DNA from: Permianibacter fluminis
GTDB taxonomy: Bacteria; Pseudomonadota; Gammaproteobacteria; Enterobacterales; Permianibacteraceae
NCBI RefSeq assembly: GCF_013179735.1
Contig: NZ_JABMEG010000001.1
Span: forward strand, 3,286,001 to 3,350,000
Reading direction: 5' to 3'
Length of the DNA: 64,000 nt
The notes under the pieces were generated by a model. That model ran no database searches, was not told where the DNA came from, and saw nothing but the letters and a program-made list of their open reading frames with translations. How positions within the stretch are numbered: the first letter of the stretch is position 1; each line of letters starts with the position of its first letter. Made by a program: the position numbers and the translations under genes. Below, one piece after another: positions 3,032 to 38,110 of the stretch.

Positions 3032-3107
3032 TGAGGCTTAATTCTCTATTTCATTGACTTACAAGCGCTGAGTCCCAAATACGGGGCTCGTTTCAACGCT
3101 GTTTGTC

Positions 3108-28840: not shown

Positions 28841-29605
28841 TTAACCAGTCTGGCTTAACTCGGCGCAGTGCTGCCCAAGCGACTTGCGCCGCGGCCCCTG
28901 CGCAACCAGCAACATACCAACATCGGCGGCGGTCTTCAGCAAGCCAAAAAGCAACATACCGCCGAGCGAATCCAACGCCTGTCCGGCAAATATAATCACC
29001 AAGTGCATGGGGATAATGCGCATATAGGGCGTAATAAACATTAACCCCAGATTGGGCACTGTTTGTCTATCTACCGTGACCTGCTGACGATGCTCCAGCA
29101 TCAGCTCGAACACTAGCGCAATCAGACAGAGACCGAAAAATAGATCAACGGCGTAAAGCCCTTTGCCAAGCACGAGAAGAAAAACAAGATGTAACAGGCA
29201 AAAAAACAAGTAATGAGACAGAAAAGAGACAATGCACTTTCTCTTCTCTCGATTTGCGAGCTCACGAATTCCCTCGTCGTAACGAACGCCGACACTATCA
29301 AAACGCTGCAAGCGAAGTATTCTCACCGCATTGCTAATACCGATGAGCACACTTTGTGCCCAATAGGTCAACATCAGCGAGAAATTGCTCCATCCGCCGA
29401 AGATTGCAGCGGCTAATACCAGACAATTGACCAGTACGAGACCGAGAATCTCTCTACGGTCCTTCACACGTTGCGACAGCAGAATCGTTGACTGCCGCGC
29501 CACCTCAGCGGCATGAACATAGCGGCTACCACAAGCCACGCAGGTCAATCGAAGTTTGACGGCCATTGCGGATCGAGTTGCACCGCAGACAGGACATGCC
29601 AGCAT
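28841..29605 (-). CDS. Zinc-ribbon membrane protein, DUF6498-like
   Basis: A 254-aa protein. Its N-terminus forms a two-knuckle zinc ribbon (CPVCG at 4-8 and CVACG at 22-26), followed by about six membrane helices beginning near residue 55. The membrane part, with NFSLMLTYWAQSVLIGISNA, resembles DUF6498 proteins. Role unknown. It is lower in GC than its neighbours. Confidence 0.7.
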   Translation of the reverse strand: MLACPVCGATRSAMAVKLRLTCVACGSRYVHAAEVARQSTILLSQRVKDRREILGLVLVNCLVLAAAIFGGWSNFSLMLTYWAQSVLIGISNAVRILRLQRFDSVGVRYDEGIRELANREKRKCIVSFLSHYLFFCLLHLVFLLVLGKGLYAVDLFFGLCLIALVFELMLEHRQQVTVDRQTVPNLGLMFITPYMRIIPMHLVIIFAGQALDSLGGMLLFGLLKTAADVGMLLVAQGPRRKSLGQHCAELSQTG

Positions 29606-29686: not shown

Positions 29687-31396
29687 CTAGGCGCCGAGCA
29701 ACTGCAGTACACCGTTGGAACTGAGATTGGCTTGTTGCGCGATGGCAAGACCAAATTGTTGCAGGATTTGGCTGCGGGCCAGCTCGGCGGTTTCAACGGC
29801 GAAATCGGCATCGCGAATACGGCTGCGGCTGGTTTCGGCGTTTTCGCGGGTGTTGCCGAGATTGGCGATGGTCGATTGCAGCCGATTCATCACCGCGCCC
29901 ATTTTGGCGCGCTGGGAATCGACTTGGGTCAGCGCGTCATCAAGGAACATCACGGCGAATTGCGGCGCGTTGATCAGATCCAGATCGGTCAGACCCAGAC
30001 TGGTGGTCGAGACGCCACCAAAACCCGCATCGATGGTTTCAAAGCGGTTGGCACCAACCTGAAAACTGACAATCTCGCCGCCGAGGCTGTCGGAACCCAA
30101 GGTCGGGAACACGACATTGAAACCGTCCATCGGCTGATCGCTGACGCCGTTGCCATCACCCACGTTCGGGAACACGCTCTTGGCGGTGTAGACCGCACCA
30201 CCATCAACATCGAGACCACCAATCGCGCCGGTATCCTCGTTGGCAAAATTGAACGTGCCAATAAATGCAGCGCCGTTGGCGGTAAAGTCGGCTTCAAATG
30301 CAGCAAGGTTGGCATAGGCACCGCTGCTGGCGTTCGCCAGTGCCGTGCTCAGATTGCTGCCAGGGTTGGCGTTCATGTACACCATCAGATCTTTGATACC
30401 GTTGCCGCCAGCAGCCTGAATCTGTTCGTGCAAATAGCGCACAGCGGAATAGCCGGCAGAATAACCGGCACTTGCCGAGACATCATCAGCGGCAAAAGCG
30501 GCCATGACTGCCGCCGTATTGGTGCCGTTGGCGGTATCGCCGGCCACGCGTTCGTCAGCGCCGTGAATGAATTCGGCAGTGCCTTCGATGAACCAGTTTG
30601 GCAACGCGCCCGGCGTGAAATTGGTCGCTCGGCCCATGATGGCGTGCACCATTTCATGGCCGATGATGCGGTCATTGAAGAACGGTGAGCTGCCGCCGTC
30701 GGGCAGGTTTGGCGGCACGAAATCGGCCATGTCGACATTCAATTCCATGCCGGTGGTATGACCGTTGCCGTCGAGTCCGGTGTAACTCACCGAGGCCAAT
30801 ACCCCACCGGCACCATCTGAACTGGGATCATTCAAATCCACAGTAATGGTCGCGCCATCGCCAACAATGCCGTAGTAATCGCGGACCCGATTTTCGGCTT
30901 CCGGCAACCAGACCGCTTTCAGGCCCATCACCACCACGCGCTGGGCAAATGTCGCTGAAGATGATGCTCCAGCCGGACTGAACAGCGATTTGCCACCAAA
31001 GCGGGTGGTGTCATTGATACGGTTAATTTCTTGTTGCAGCGCGGTGACTTCTTTTTGCAGCGCTTCACGCTCCTGCGGACCGTTGCTGCCGTTGGCTGAC
31101 TGCACGGCCAGATCGCGCATGCGCAGGATGGCGTTGGTGACTTCCTGCAACGAACCTTCGGCAGTTTGCAGCATCGACAGGCCATCGTTGGCATTGCGCA
31201 TGGCCTGTGCCAGCCCGCCGACCTGGGCACTCAAGCGATTGCTGATTTGCAATCCGGCAGCGTCGTCCTTGGCGCTGTTGATTTTGTAGCCCGAGGACAG
31301 GCGCTGGAAGCGCAAGCCCAGAGACTGACTGGATTGATAGAGTTGCCGCTGCGCGTTAAGCGCCGCGACATTCGTGTTGAGTTGCACCGAGTGCAT
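29687..31396 (-). CDS. Flagellinolysin: flagellin with embedded zinc metallopeptidase domain
   Basis: A 569-aa flagellin. Residues 1-145 are a normal N-terminal D0/D1 (LNTNVAALNAQRQL, RLSSGYKINSAKDDAAGLQI) and about 470-569 a normal C-terminal D0 (NTRENAETSRSRIRDADFA, ending GVLQLLGA). The surface-exposed middle, replacing D2/D3, carries a gluzincin-type site: H247-E248-x-x-H251 in GHEMVHAIMG and E271 in NWFIEGTAEF as third zinc ligand. This is the architecture of flagellinolysin, a described family whose filaments are proteolytic. The frame is open throughout. GAGGGG abuts the ATG, while a GTG at 31387 has better spacing, so the protein may start three residues later. A FliA promoter lies upstream. 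Confidence 0.93.
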   Translation of the reverse strand: MHSVQLNTNVAALNAQRQLYQSSQSLGLRFQRLSSGYKINSAKDDAAGLQISNRLSAQVGGLAQAMRNANDGLSMLQTAEGSLQEVTNAILRMRDLAVQSANGSNGPQEREALQKEVTALQQEINRINDTTRFGGKSLFSPAGASSSATFAQRVVVMGLKAVWLPEAENRVRDYYGIVGDGATITVDLNDPSSDGAGGVLASVSYTGLDGNGHTTGMELNVDMADFVPPNLPDGGSSPFFNDRIIGHEMVHAIMGRATNFTPGALPNWFIEGTAEFIHGADERVAGDTANGTNTAAVMAAFAADDVSASAGYSAGYSAVRYLHEQIQAAGGNGIKDLMVYMNANPGSNLSTALANASSGAYANLAAFEADFTANGAAFIGTFNFANEDTGAIGGLDVDGGAVYTAKSVFPNVGDGNGVSDQPMDGFNVVFPTLGSDSLGGEIVSFQVGANRFETIDAGFGGVSTTSLGLTDLDLINAPQFAVMFLDDALTQVDSQRAKMGAVMNRLQSTIANLGNTRENAETSRSRIRDADFAVETAELARSQILQQFGLAIAQQANLSSNGVLQLLGA

Positions 31397-31462: not shown

Positions 31463-31489
31463 AAGTCGGCCCGGCCGGCGGAAACTTTA
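31463..31489 (-). promoter_or_regulatory. Sigma-28 (FliA) promoter of the flagellinolysin gene
   Basis: On the minus strand TAAAGTTT, 11 nt, then GCCGACTT. The -35 matches the FliA consensus exactly and the -10 (consensus GCCGATAA) at five of eight positions including the GCCGA core, with the standard 11-nt spacer. The start codon lies 67 nt downstream of the -10. Confidence 0.85.
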
Positions 31490-31650: not shown

Positions 31651-32421
31651 TCAATTACGCTGGCAATAGAACACACTGAGGTAATTCGGGGTCGGGTACT
31701 GAATCTCGGCCAGCGCGACATCGATGCCGAGAGACTTCTTCAAATCGGCCTGCAGCGCCTCTGCGGCCTGGCGCTCGTCCGGGTTGTAGCGAATCAGGTT
31801 TTGCTCGATGTGATAGCCCGGCCGGGCATTGATCTCGTCCGGCAACGCCCGCACCCGCCAGCTGGCGGCACTGTTGCTTTCACGCAGCCTCAGCGTCGAC
31901 TCGGCCTTGGCTTTGCCGGTTCCTGAATTATCGGCGCAATAGAATGCATCAACCCGAATCGCTCCGTAGGGCTTGTCCGGATTCGCCACTTTTGCACTCG
32001 ACAGGGAAACCGCAGGAGCGAGTTCCTCTTCCTTGAAAAATGTCGCCGACGCTTCGGCTTTTTGTTTGACGGTCGGGTCACCGGCAGCCACTGCGATGGC
32101 CTGCAGCAGTTTCCAGCGAAACGGGTCTTCGGCCAGCGAATCCACCAGCACCCGCATTGCCTCTTCTTCACGGGCGTTGTGCTCCTTGGCACTCAGCACC
32201 GCCTTGACCTCCTGATACAACTGCAAACTCAAGGCTCGCGAAGACTCCAGCCGTTTCATTTCGGCATCGGACAGTTTGAGCGCATTGTCCAGACGCACCG
32301 TTTCGGCTTGCAGCGCTTTCAACTGCGCATCGAGCGGCAAGGCATACCACGCCGCGGTAGTGGCGATTGCCAGTGAAATCAACGTCAAGATTTTGCTGAA
32401 TTGATCCATCCAGGCCGACAT
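31651..32421 (-). CDS. Membrane-anchored coiled-coil protein of unknown function
   Basis: A 256-aa protein. One helix near the N-terminus (ILTLISLAIATTAAWYAL, residues 11-28), then a coiled coil (about 32-62, LKALQAETVRLDNALKLSDA), a helical segment, and a C-terminal alpha/beta region with Y/C/D-rich FYCADNSG and a terminal SVFYCQRN. Start chosen at ATG 32421 behind GGGAGGG. The topology suggests a periplasmic or cytoplasmic C-terminal domain tethered to the inner membrane. I do not recognise the family. Confidence 0.7.
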   Translation of the reverse strand: MSAWMDQFSKILTLISLAIATTAAWYALPLDAQLKALQAETVRLDNALKLSDAEMKRLESSRALSLQLYQEVKAVLSAKEHNAREEEAMRVLVDSLAEDPFRWKLLQAIAVAAGDPTVKQKAEASATFFKEEELAPAVSLSSAKVANPDKPYGAIRVDAFYCADNSGTGKAKAESTLRLRESNSAASWRVRALPDEINARPGYHIEQNLIRYNPDERQAAEALQADLKKSLGIDVALAEIQYPTPNYLSVFYCQRN

Positions 32422-32614
32422 GTCGGGTCCCTCCCTTGCGCCAATTAAAGAAGCTGAGCGCCCACAGCAGACTGACAACGTGATGACGTCTGGTGATGCC
32501 ATGACGTAACCACCAAGACCGGACGCACCGGCACTGACACCGGTCAGTGTCATAATGGCCACCCAGCGATGAGCAGCGGTTCTGCAGAAACACGCCTGCC
32601 GGAGGCGGCCATCA

Positions 32615-33394
32615 TCACAGCCTTGGCGGTAGAAAAAGCTTGGCGTCCGTCTCGCGATATTGATGCAATCGATTGCCGACCCCGCGGAAACCAAGCAAAG
32701 CGCGGCTATCCAGTCGGGTATGCATGAATCGTACGCCAATGGCCTGCGTTTGCGAATGCAGTTTCAGTCGTCCGCTGCTGCCGTATATCCTGCCTGCCCC
32801 ATGCTGGGGCCACTCGCTGTACTCGCCATTGTTTGCCACCGGTAAGGCTGGTTCTGCAGACGTGATATCCAAAAACAACTGTTCGTCAGATTGCGGCTCG
32901 ACTTGCCATTGAATCCGGATGGACTGATCCGGATCACGAACCAAGCCCGGCTGAAGATCCGGCAGGGCCAGCACATCATCGGTCGCACGATGCCCCAAGA
33001 CATCGTCGCGCCACTCCAGGTGATATTGCGGTGCCGTCGCCAAGGTCGCGCAATAATGTCGGGGCGCAAAAAAGTGCTCGCCGGGCCCGCGATTGAAATT
33101 GGCCTTCAGCACGTTGCCATTGACCGACAACTGCTGCTGCGGCGTCAATGTCCACCACGTCTGGATATATTCACCGATCCAGTCGCCTCGTTTGGCGCTG
33201 CGCTGAAACGCCGCGCAGATCTCGACCGTTTTGCCATCCGATAACTGAACCATATCAAGTTGCAGATAGCTATGTTGCCGCAGGTCAACTCCTTTGGCAC
33301 TGAAGCGCTTGCCATCGTCGCTGCACGCAGTCAGACAAAGAACACCAAGCGATAGCAAAAACCATTGGTGGCACCGATAAAGTGTTGTAGTCAA
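32615..33394 (-). CDS. Putative lipoprotein of unknown function
   Basis: About 260 aa. Residues 1-24 from a TTG at 33394 form a classic lipoprotein signal (TTTLYRCHQWFLLSLGVLCLTAC, lipobox LTAC with the acylated Cys), and AGGGA precedes that TTG by 6 nt. A GTG at 33457 overlapping the upstream stop as GTGA is the alternative, but it would put 21 odd residues before the signal. The mature part is beta-rich. It follows the sialidase-fold gene directly, so the two are likely cotranscribed. Confidence 0.65.
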   Translation of the reverse strand: MTTTLYRCHQWFLLSLGVLCLTACSDDGKRFSAKGVDLRQHSYLQLDMVQLSDGKTVEICAAFQRSAKRGDWIGEYIQTWWTLTPQQQLSVNGNVLKANFNRGPGEHFFAPRHYCATLATAPQYHLEWRDDVLGHRATDDVLALPDLQPGLVRDPDQSIRIQWQVEPQSDEQLFLDITSAEPALPVANNGEYSEWPQHGAGRIYGSSGRLKLHSQTQAIGVRFMHTRLDSRALLGFRGVGNRLHQYRETDAKLFLPPRL

Positions 33395-36412: not shown

Positions 36413-38110
36413 TCAATTTTTCAGCAGCTGCTCCCGGACTGCCTTGAATTCCGAACCCGGTTTGAAATCGACATTTTTCAAATCGCGGGCCAGATCACGG
36501 CCAACCAGATAGTACAGCTCGGCATCCTGACCAAATCCGGCGATATCCCAATCCGGTTTGATGTCGTCATCTTCCTTGTGATAATCGTGTGAGCCGTATT
36601 CTTTGCCTTTCTGCTCACCGTAACCTTCCGGCTTGCCGATCACGTCTTCGCCACCTTCCAAAAAGGCCGCCGGCACACCTTTCTTGACCAGATTGAAATG
36701 GTCGGAGCGGAAATAGCCACCACTTTCCGGCCGGCTATCCGGTGTGACATGGCGGCCCTGCAGTTCGGCGTTGTGTTCAATCAAGTCTTCGATGGTGGTT
36801 TGACCGTAACCGACCACCTGAATGTCCCGAGTCTTGCCCCACGGCTGCATCGAATCGATGTTCAGGTTGGCCACGGTTTTCTTCAGCGGATAAAGCGGAT
36901 TGTCGGCATAGTATTTGGAACCGAGCAGACCTTTCTCTTCCGCTGTCACCGCGACAAACAATACGCTGCGCCTCAGCGCTTTTTTGTCGGCGGCGAAAGT
37001 GCGTGCCATTTCAATCAAGGCCGCCACACCGGAAGCATTGTCGACCGCGCCATTGAAAATATGGGTCTGGCCGCCCTCCTCGGTTTTACCGAGATGATCC
37101 CAGTGCGCGGTGTAAACCACATACTCATCTTTGTGATGTTTGTCCGCCCCTGGCACCAGCGCCACCACGTTTTTCGATTGCATTTCCCGCAGGCTGTTGC
37201 TGATGCTGGCGGTGAGCTTGGTCGCCAATGGCACCGGCTTGAAATCTTTCTTCAGTGCCGCCGCCTTCAGCGCATCGAAATCCTGACCACAGCCCTTCAG
37301 CAAGGCGCGGGCTTTGTCTTCGCGTATCCAGGAACGCATCGGCACATCACCGGCGTTGCCGTCGGTTGGCTTCAGGGTCATGTTTTCACCGACGCCGTTG
37401 TTGCGCACCACCTCGTAAGGGTACGAAGCCGGCCCGGTTTCGTGCACGATGATGGCGCCGGCAGCGCCTTTTGCAGCAGCGATTTCGTATTTGTAAGTCC
37501 AGCGACCGTAGTAGGTCATGGCCTTACCTTTGAACATGTTGCTGTCGAGCTTACTCGGGTCCGTCGGATCCGGAATCGCCGGATCATTCACCAGCATCAC
37601 CAGCGTTTTGCCTTTGACGTCCAGCCCTTTGTAATCGTCCCAACCGTATTCCGGCGCAACCACGCCGTAACCAACGAAAACCAGATCCGAGGCTTTGATC
37701 TCGACTTGCGGCTTGACCTGCGTTGTCCAGGCAACGTATTCATCCGGCGCCGACAGTTTCAGTTCGCTGGCGCAACCTTCGAAGCTCCAGCTTGGCGTAC
37801 TGCGGATGCCGACCAGCGGCACGTTCTGCACCCAACTGCCATCTGGATTTCCGGGCATGGCGCCGGCAGCCTTGAACTGCTCGCTCAAGTAAGCAACGGT
37901 TTTCTCCTCGCCGACGGTGCCGGGGCCGCGGCCCTCGAACGCATCGGAAGCCAGCACCTTGATATGGTCGAGAATGCGCTGCGAAGAAATCAGCTCTTTG
38001 CCAGCGTCGGCATGGCTGGCAGCCGCCATAGTCACGCTGGTACATGTCATGGCAAGTGCGAGGGCCGAGACGCGTCGCGCGTCGGCCGAAGAAAACCTGA
38101 ACAGAGTCAT
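36413..38110 (-). CDS. Exported M28 family zinc peptidase with PA domain
   Basis: A 565-aa exported aminopeptidase-like enzyme. Signal peptide about 1-35. The PA (protease-associated) insertion spans roughly 130-290 (KGKTLVMLVNDP, GAAGAIIVHET). Catalytic M28 motifs: YTAHWDHLG (first zinc His, with Asp), NGAVDNASGVAALIEMA (bridging Asp), VTAEEKGLLGSKYYAD (Glu pair), and FRSDHFNLVKKGVPA (last His). Full length. A degenerate 13-bp array lies 131-233 nt upstream of its start. Confidence 0.92.
   Translation of the reverse strand: MTLFRFSSADARRVSALALAMTCTSVTMAAASHADAGKELISSQRILDHIKVLASDAFEGRGPGTVGEEKTVAYLSEQFKAAGAMPGNPDGSWVQNVPLVGIRSTPSWSFEGCASELKLSAPDEYVAWTTQVKPQVEIKASDLVFVGYGVVAPEYGWDDYKGLDVKGKTLVMLVNDPAIPDPTDPSKLDSNMFKGKAMTYYGRWTYKYEIAAAKGAAGAIIVHETGPASYPYEVVRNNGVGENMTLKPTDGNAGDVPMRSWIREDKARALLKGCGQDFDALKAAALKKDFKPVPLATKLTASISNSLREMQSKNVVALVPGADKHHKDEYVVYTAHWDHLGKTEEGGQTHIFNGAVDNASGVAALIEMARTFAADKKALRRSVLFVAVTAEEKGLLGSKYYADNPLYPLKKTVANLNIDSMQPWGKTRDIQVVGYGQTTIEDLIEHNAELQGRHVTPDSRPESGGYFRSDHFNLVKKGVPAAFLEGGEDVIGKPEGYGEQKGKEYGSHDYHKEDDDIKPDWDIAGFGQDAELYYLVGRDLARDLKNVDFKPGSEFKAVREQLLKN

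Follow-up and report, generated by a model that had tools for sequence, protein, structure and literature searches.

A flagellinolysin of Permianibacter fluminis with a filament core resembling the host's own flagellins

The window analysed here, a stretch of 64,000 nucleotides from Permianibacter fluminis (3286–3350 kb of contig 1), carries a gene for a flagellinolysin, a further member of a known family. New here is the grouping of its two parts in sequence trees: the core of the protein falls with flagellins of its own genome and the peptidase with those of other bacteria. We regard it as very likely that the product is a minor, surface-exposed zinc protease subunit of the filament, transcribed under FliA, with a peptidase cassette that probably arrived independently of the core. 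Beyond what the sequence and the predicted fold provide, this mechanism is drawn from relatives.

The earlier note on this DNA had described one uninterrupted frame, and the gene does read as such from an ATG. The curated NCBIfam equivalog profile for flagellinolysin matches along its whole length (model positions 1–384 of 384, 3.5e-126; score in Table 1), and the protein is 47% identical over its full length to the enzyme of Hylemonella gracilis; both results bear out the family identity that the note had proposed. The family was described in 2017 (PMC5595980) and corresponds to MEROPS M101 according to PMC7643111. Filament-core halves surround the peptidase, as the definition of a flagellinolysin requires: Flagellin_N covers residues 7–140 (137.6 bits, 3.8e-40) and Flagellin_C residues 485–567 (75.6 bits, 4e-21), both above the Pfam cut-offs and with E values that exclude a chance match. 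The D0/D1 ends are therefore those of a flagellin, as had been noted, but the protein does not end with the peptidase. The latter (about residues 155–431) is inserted, and is followed by the D1 strand FQVGANRFETI (445–455) and the C-terminal D1/D0 half. In the resident flagellins compared, the strand motif SFQVGANRFETI stands directly after the N-terminal D1. Peptidase family M9 was considered as an assignment and rejected, since Pfam PF01752 reaches 24.2 bits against a cut-off of 26. The start codon, judged by eye, is uncertain. A GTG three codons downstream of the ATG has the better spaced purine run by eye; we have retained the ATG because the protein then begins with MxSV, as two of the four resident flagellins do.

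Table 1. Features of the flagellinolysin gene and its upstream region (positions in the window).
Feature	Position	Strand	Basis
Flagellinolysin gene, 569 aa	29687..31396	-	ORF; NCBIfam NF033876, 421.7 bits against a cut-off of 205
N-terminal D0/D1 filament-core half, aa 1–140	30977..31396	-	Flagellin_N; 65–67% identity to the four own-genome flagellins
Gluzincin peptidase domain, about aa 155–431	30104..30934	-	Alignments A1/A2/A5; domain model; M9 fold matches
HEMVH zinc/catalytic motif, aa 247–251	30644..30658	-	Sequence; alignment A5; helix 241–257 of the model
E271, predicted third zinc ligand	30584..30586	-	Invariant in A5; Ala three residues later (A274)
D1 hairpin strand SFQVGANRFETI, aa 444–455, after the inserted domain	30032..30067	-	Same motif in own flagellins
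C-terminal D1/D0 filament-core half, aa 485–567	29696..29944	-	Flagellin_C; identity to own flagellins
Sigma-28 (FliA)-like promoter TAAAGTTT-N11-GCCGACTT	31463..31489	-	93 nt upstream of the ATG; 13 of 16 consensus positions

The putative zinc site was found as it had been claimed, with H247, E248 and H251 in HEMVH (M249 and V250 lie between) and E271. The H, E and H of the HExxH motif and E271 are invariant in the 32 rows of alignment A5, and across the alignments the relatives conserve the motif, the distal glutamate and the alanine that follows it. A model of the full-length protein (22 sequences, pLDDT 74, moderate) places H247 and H251 in helix 241–257 and E271 in the next helix, 267–274, which is the arrangement expected of gluzincins. 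The D0 region of this model is of low confidence, with N-terminal blocks of 35–49. A fold search with it gave only flagellins among the best 50 matches listed and no viral match at E ≤ 0.001, and we therefore folded the peptidase domain alone. That model (32 sequences) has a pLDDT of 92.8 and a pTM of 0.92, and its best solved matches are two M9 collagenase peptidase domains, 7wss (Z 12.2, 3.8 Å over 206 residues) and 4ar1 (Z 12.1, 4.2 Å over 219 residues). The M1 aminopeptidases come after these with Z 10.8 and lower, a small gap between the groups, and Z values below about 13, those here being about 12, may reflect an arrangement common in helix-rich models. For these reasons we go no further than to assign the predicted structure to the gluzincin fold with collagenase nearest, in agreement with the published homology. 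The domain model likewise gave no viral match at E ≤ 0.001 and so was of no help with the link to tail domains considered below.

Our main argument concerns the ancestry of the two parts. Identity of the core to the best resident flagellin is 67% in the N-terminal and 64% in the C-terminal half; the latter half is 63–64% identical to three of the four and 53% identical to the fourth, for which the N-terminal value is 65%. Against L009, the nearest flagellinolysin, the core values are 56% (N) and 57.5% (C); in the peptidase domain, L009 and L013 both reach 60% identity. A core tree and a peptidase tree were built, each from 43 rows of selected representatives; several other same-host flagellins, near-identical flagellinolysins, most of the tail loci and every permuted domain are not among them. 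In the core tree the window core lies inside a clade of its own family (99/94) and adjoins three of the resident flagellins (85/84, unstarred), on an end branch of 0.61 that is flagged as long and leaves its exact place unsure. The peptidase tree gives the domain of L013 as sister of the window domain (99/93), with L009 joining next (95/89).

The same pattern recurs elsewhere. Among the 12 genomes with ordinary flagellins in the core tree, the flagellinolysin core sits with the flagellins of its host in nine: the window's, those of L009, L013, L021 and L045, G102 (92/82, unstarred), G357 and, jointly, G378 and G171. The grouping is absent in G360, the Massilia genome (L014) and G099. A single clade of all 16 flagellinolysin cores is rejected by 245 log units (p-AU 2.4e-5). 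Many deeper forks of the peptidase tree are unresolved, so most of the other carriers show the core half of the argument only. The position of the insertion gives a second line of comparison. In 12 of 15 flagellinolysins an FQxGA strand follows the inserted domain and stands 123–126 residues before the C-terminus; L045 and L105 have it ahead of the domain, and the pattern finds none in L102. From these sequences, the best reading of a shared insertion point combined with many different cores is that the domain was inserted once and that recombination in the conserved ends came afterwards, with a second type of insertion besides. PMC5595980 had already proposed partial insertion and lateral transfer.

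In position the gene stands alone. Flagellin_N has six matches genome-wide and, as the note had observed for the window, only this gene lies within it. The conventional flagellins for which it had suggested looking elsewhere are there, as four strong matches; the weaker sixth match, named by eye, is probably FlgL. All five lie at 3105–3127 kb, some 200 kb away, where ORFs resembling fliD, fliS and a sigma-54 regulator were recognized by eye beside the ordinary flagellins. None of the 13 neighbouring ORFs scanned (between 21244 and 40146) matched a flagellar family, in line with the note; ten were scanned with Pfam and ten with NCBIfam, seven of them with both, and for two the NCBIfam result comprises the best 25 families. 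The flanking genes, 28841–29605 and 31651–32739 (both -), are one with DUF6498 and one without a family match. A gene resembling an M28-family aminopeptidase, possibly unrelated, lies about 5 kb upstream on the same strand (36413–38110, -). One genome of the same genus and one of the same family, both of which have ordinary flagellins, lack the peptidase domain in a search in which our own genome served as a responding positive control; neither flanking gene was found in them, in searches run without a positive control. The neighbourhood of the flagellinolysin gene may thus be strain-variable.

To call it an isolated filament gene, as had been done, is right as to position but not as to regulation, since a sigma-28-like promoter ties it to the flagellar regulon. 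Sites were scored against what we take to be the sigma-28 consensus. Among sites with at least five of eight matches in the first half, this is the only one to reach at least 13 of 16 on either strand of the 64 kb; when half-overlapping 300-nt tiles were scanned without this filter, 13 was reached in two tiles only and nothing scored higher. Its -10 element, GCCGACTT, is weak. Upstream of the ordinary resident flagellins comparable sites score 13–15 in three cases and 11 in the fourth, and the genome encodes a single FliA above the cut-off (261.4 against 189.6 bits). The predicted promoter links the gene to the FliA regulon and would make its transcription FliA-dependent. The upstream regions of 13 relatives give a mixed signal, in some only above background: the scores of L011, L012 and L014 are matched by only 2–4 of 152 background windows and those of seven others by 7–14 of 152, and there is no stand-out signal in L009 (38 of 152), L045 (58 of 156) or L013 (151 of 160). 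A general sigma-70 promoter scan found none, and terminator-like matches stayed below the shuffled mean.

We propose the following course of events. FliA (sigma-28) would transcribe the gene late in flagellar assembly. The flagellar type III apparatus is the export route of flagellins, and this protein would take it too. Its D0/D1 core would then let it copolymerize with the four ordinary flagellins as a minor component. The zinc endopeptidase, which occupies the turn of the D1 β-hairpin, would project from the filament surface and, by analogy with characterized relatives, cleave extracellular proteins or peptides. Recombination in the conserved D0/D1 ends would have brought a separately acquired peptidase cassette into a core that resembles those of the resident flagellins. 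Because the core is like the resident filament proteins and the enzyme like those of other bacteria, direct copolymerization is predicted.

A separate origin of core and peptidase falls short of formal proof. The tests do not reject a grouping of the window core with the cores of both L009 and L013 (p-AU 0.064) or with that of L013 alone (0.072). The former value and the long core branch leave some room for the whole gene to have arrived or been inherited as a unit, with convergence, later gene conversion or poor resolution of the tree accounting for the host-like core. The joint absence of the peptidase and of both flanking genes from the same-genus and same-family genomes, the flank searches being without positive control, is also what gain or loss of a block would give. 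We nevertheless think whole-gene arrival rather unlikely, given the well supported place of the core in its own family in the best tree and the rejection of a single clade of cores.

Separate acquisition is thus the reading that we prefer, and the fate of the exported protein is a further question. In the manner of the secreted flagellin FlaC, it might leave through the flagellar apparatus and act mostly as a released, soluble protease. The low model confidence in D0 and the long core branch would fit poorer assembly, and secretion is named as an alternative in PMC7643111. Against this, both D0/D1 ends are complete and up to 67% (N) and 64% (C) identical to the resident flagellins, and the relative in C. 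haemolyticum is found in filaments (PMC5595980); release as the main fate seems to us distinctly improbable. Still less credible is a purely structural or adhesive flagellin with an inactive peptidase domain. Loss of the third ligand has occurred elsewhere, in a permuted copy of the domain, but in the window protein every residue of the zinc site is intact and the resemblance to a proven enzyme extends across the domain.

In the protein's own class, 12 of 369 sampled genomes have a match to the domain, strong in eight (our own included), and all eight strong matches lie in Flagellin_N ORFs; in the phylum to which the genome of L022 belongs the corresponding figures are 21 of 398 and eight. The weak matches, in four of the 12 and 13 of the 21 genomes and in L095–L097, were excluded as carriers; L096 by eye resembles an M9 collagenase. 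The zinc motif is present in 26 of the 80 loci found, the remainder being ordinary flagellins or parts of them. L030, of which only the second half aligned, was omitted from alignment A1. Five of the 398 genomes (G757, G447, G779, G736 and G690) contain a circularly permuted domain (L134, L135, L133, L117 and L118, respectively), in which model positions from about 130–180 to 264 come ahead of 2–180. Four of these copies are intact frames and that of G690 is split by a stop; a non-permuted copy is also present in G447, G757 and G779. Flagellin ends are confirmed by Pfam in L134 and L135, and in L135 alanine replaces the third zinc ligand. Other copies have altered ends: L022 and L023, and perhaps L024–L027, L029 and L059, show a degraded D0; L022 and L023 have a partial Flagellin_N and no Flagellin_C, and a Flagellin_C match is missing in eight of the 22 members of alignment A3. 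Judging from their sequences, flagellinolysins with a degraded D0 may not polymerize normally.

Homologous domains also occur on proteins of other kinds. In L052 (Cellvibrio mixtus) and L038 (a gammaproteobacterial MAG) the domain, 43% and 46.5% identical to that of the window, respectively, is part of very long ORFs with RTX-type repeats, which Pfam confirms in L052 only; in the peptidase tree these two adjoin the flagellin forms of L045 and G099 (98/100). The domain has matches in ten plasmid records, and in three of these the match spans at least 80% of its length. The three records examined each carry it, with the zinc motif intact, at the C-terminal end of a tail protein (PHROG 1887) whose gene is the third after a tape-measure gene. 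The gene of L091 is annotated 'flagellin' yet scores as a tail protein, with a flagellinolysin score of only 102.7 bits. Among viral contigs, the flagellin-type query found two loci and a tail-type query 25, those two contigs included; an ORF with the zinc motif is present at 23 of the 25 (about 20 distinct), L182 and L183 being unmatched by the pattern. The tail-type carriers are L089–L092 and L181–L204, on prophage-like plasmids and viral contigs. In the peptidase tree 12 tail domains form one clade apart (100/98). The tree is unrooted, so the ancestral carrier cannot be told. With the window domain as query, a collection of phage records gave no match at E ≤ 0.001. A word search of the main text of PMC5595980 and PMC7643111 found neither 'phage' nor 'RTX', and a literature search of titles and the starts of abstracts, with most subscription papers outside it, returned nothing that we recognized on tail or RTX carriers or on permutation of the domain.

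Taken together, these observations incline us, by a modest degree, to regard the peptidase as a mobile surface-display cassette and not as a fixed flagellin family. It would have entered the D1 hairpin once, after which recombination in the conserved ends of flagellins shifted it between cores and left each copy in that of its host, with a separate insertion site in flagellins of the L045/G099 type, probable exchange with giant RTX proteins, circular permutation in some lineages and a common origin with the C-terminal protease domain of phage tails. The gene itself extends a known family; what is added is the contrast between core and peptidase and the wider range of carriers. The ancestry of the family was called undetermined in PMC5595980, and homologous domains on phage-tail and RTX proteins make it more approachable. 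The window gene can serve to test how flagella acquire enzymes as decoration.

Comparison with known systems places the protein more closely. Relatives are known to be zinc- and calcium-dependent endopeptidases (PMC5595980; PMC7643111), and two have published cleavage profiles. The statement in the earlier note that the substrate is open was thus too strong, and stands for the biological target: by analogy the cleavage preference of the window enzyme should be roughly predictable, whereas its target is not. The M9 collagenases (ColG, ColH, ColT and the Grimontia collagenase) share the predicted fold of the peptidase domain (Z 11.0–12.2), but are only 11–15% identical to it in structural alignments and do not reside in a flagellin. 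The PHROG 1887 tail proteins and the RTX proteins of L052 and L038 have a homologous domain with the HExxH, W..EGxAE and DT...GG signatures, and are not flagellins either. Another flagellinolysin is FliA(H) of C. haemolyticum, with HExxH, a distal glutamate (Glu262) and an alanine three residues later (Ala265) in the hypervariable region of a flagellin (PMC5595980). It has been shown on filaments, as a less abundant subunit beside the structural flagellin (PMC5595980). Its gene, unlike that in the window, lies inside a flagellar cluster (PMC7643111).

The closest CHARACTERISED relative is L011 of Hylemonella gracilis ATCC 19624, with 565 residues and its HExxH at H249, which fits HgrFlaMP as published (PMC7643111). 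Across 265 aligned domain residues the identity to the window protein is 55%. HgrFlaMP is an active zinc/calcium protease that prefers large hydrophobic P1' residues (PMC7643111); its activity is proven, whereas the window protein is known from sequence and model. The cores differ, with 49% (N) and 52% (C) identity, and the loop from HExxH to the third glutamate is three residues longer in L011. The two proteins nevertheless agree in architecture, in HEMVH, in the third glutamate and in the insertion point in the D1 hairpin, and the HgrFlaMP gene, like that in the window, lies away from the flagellar genes (PMC7643111).
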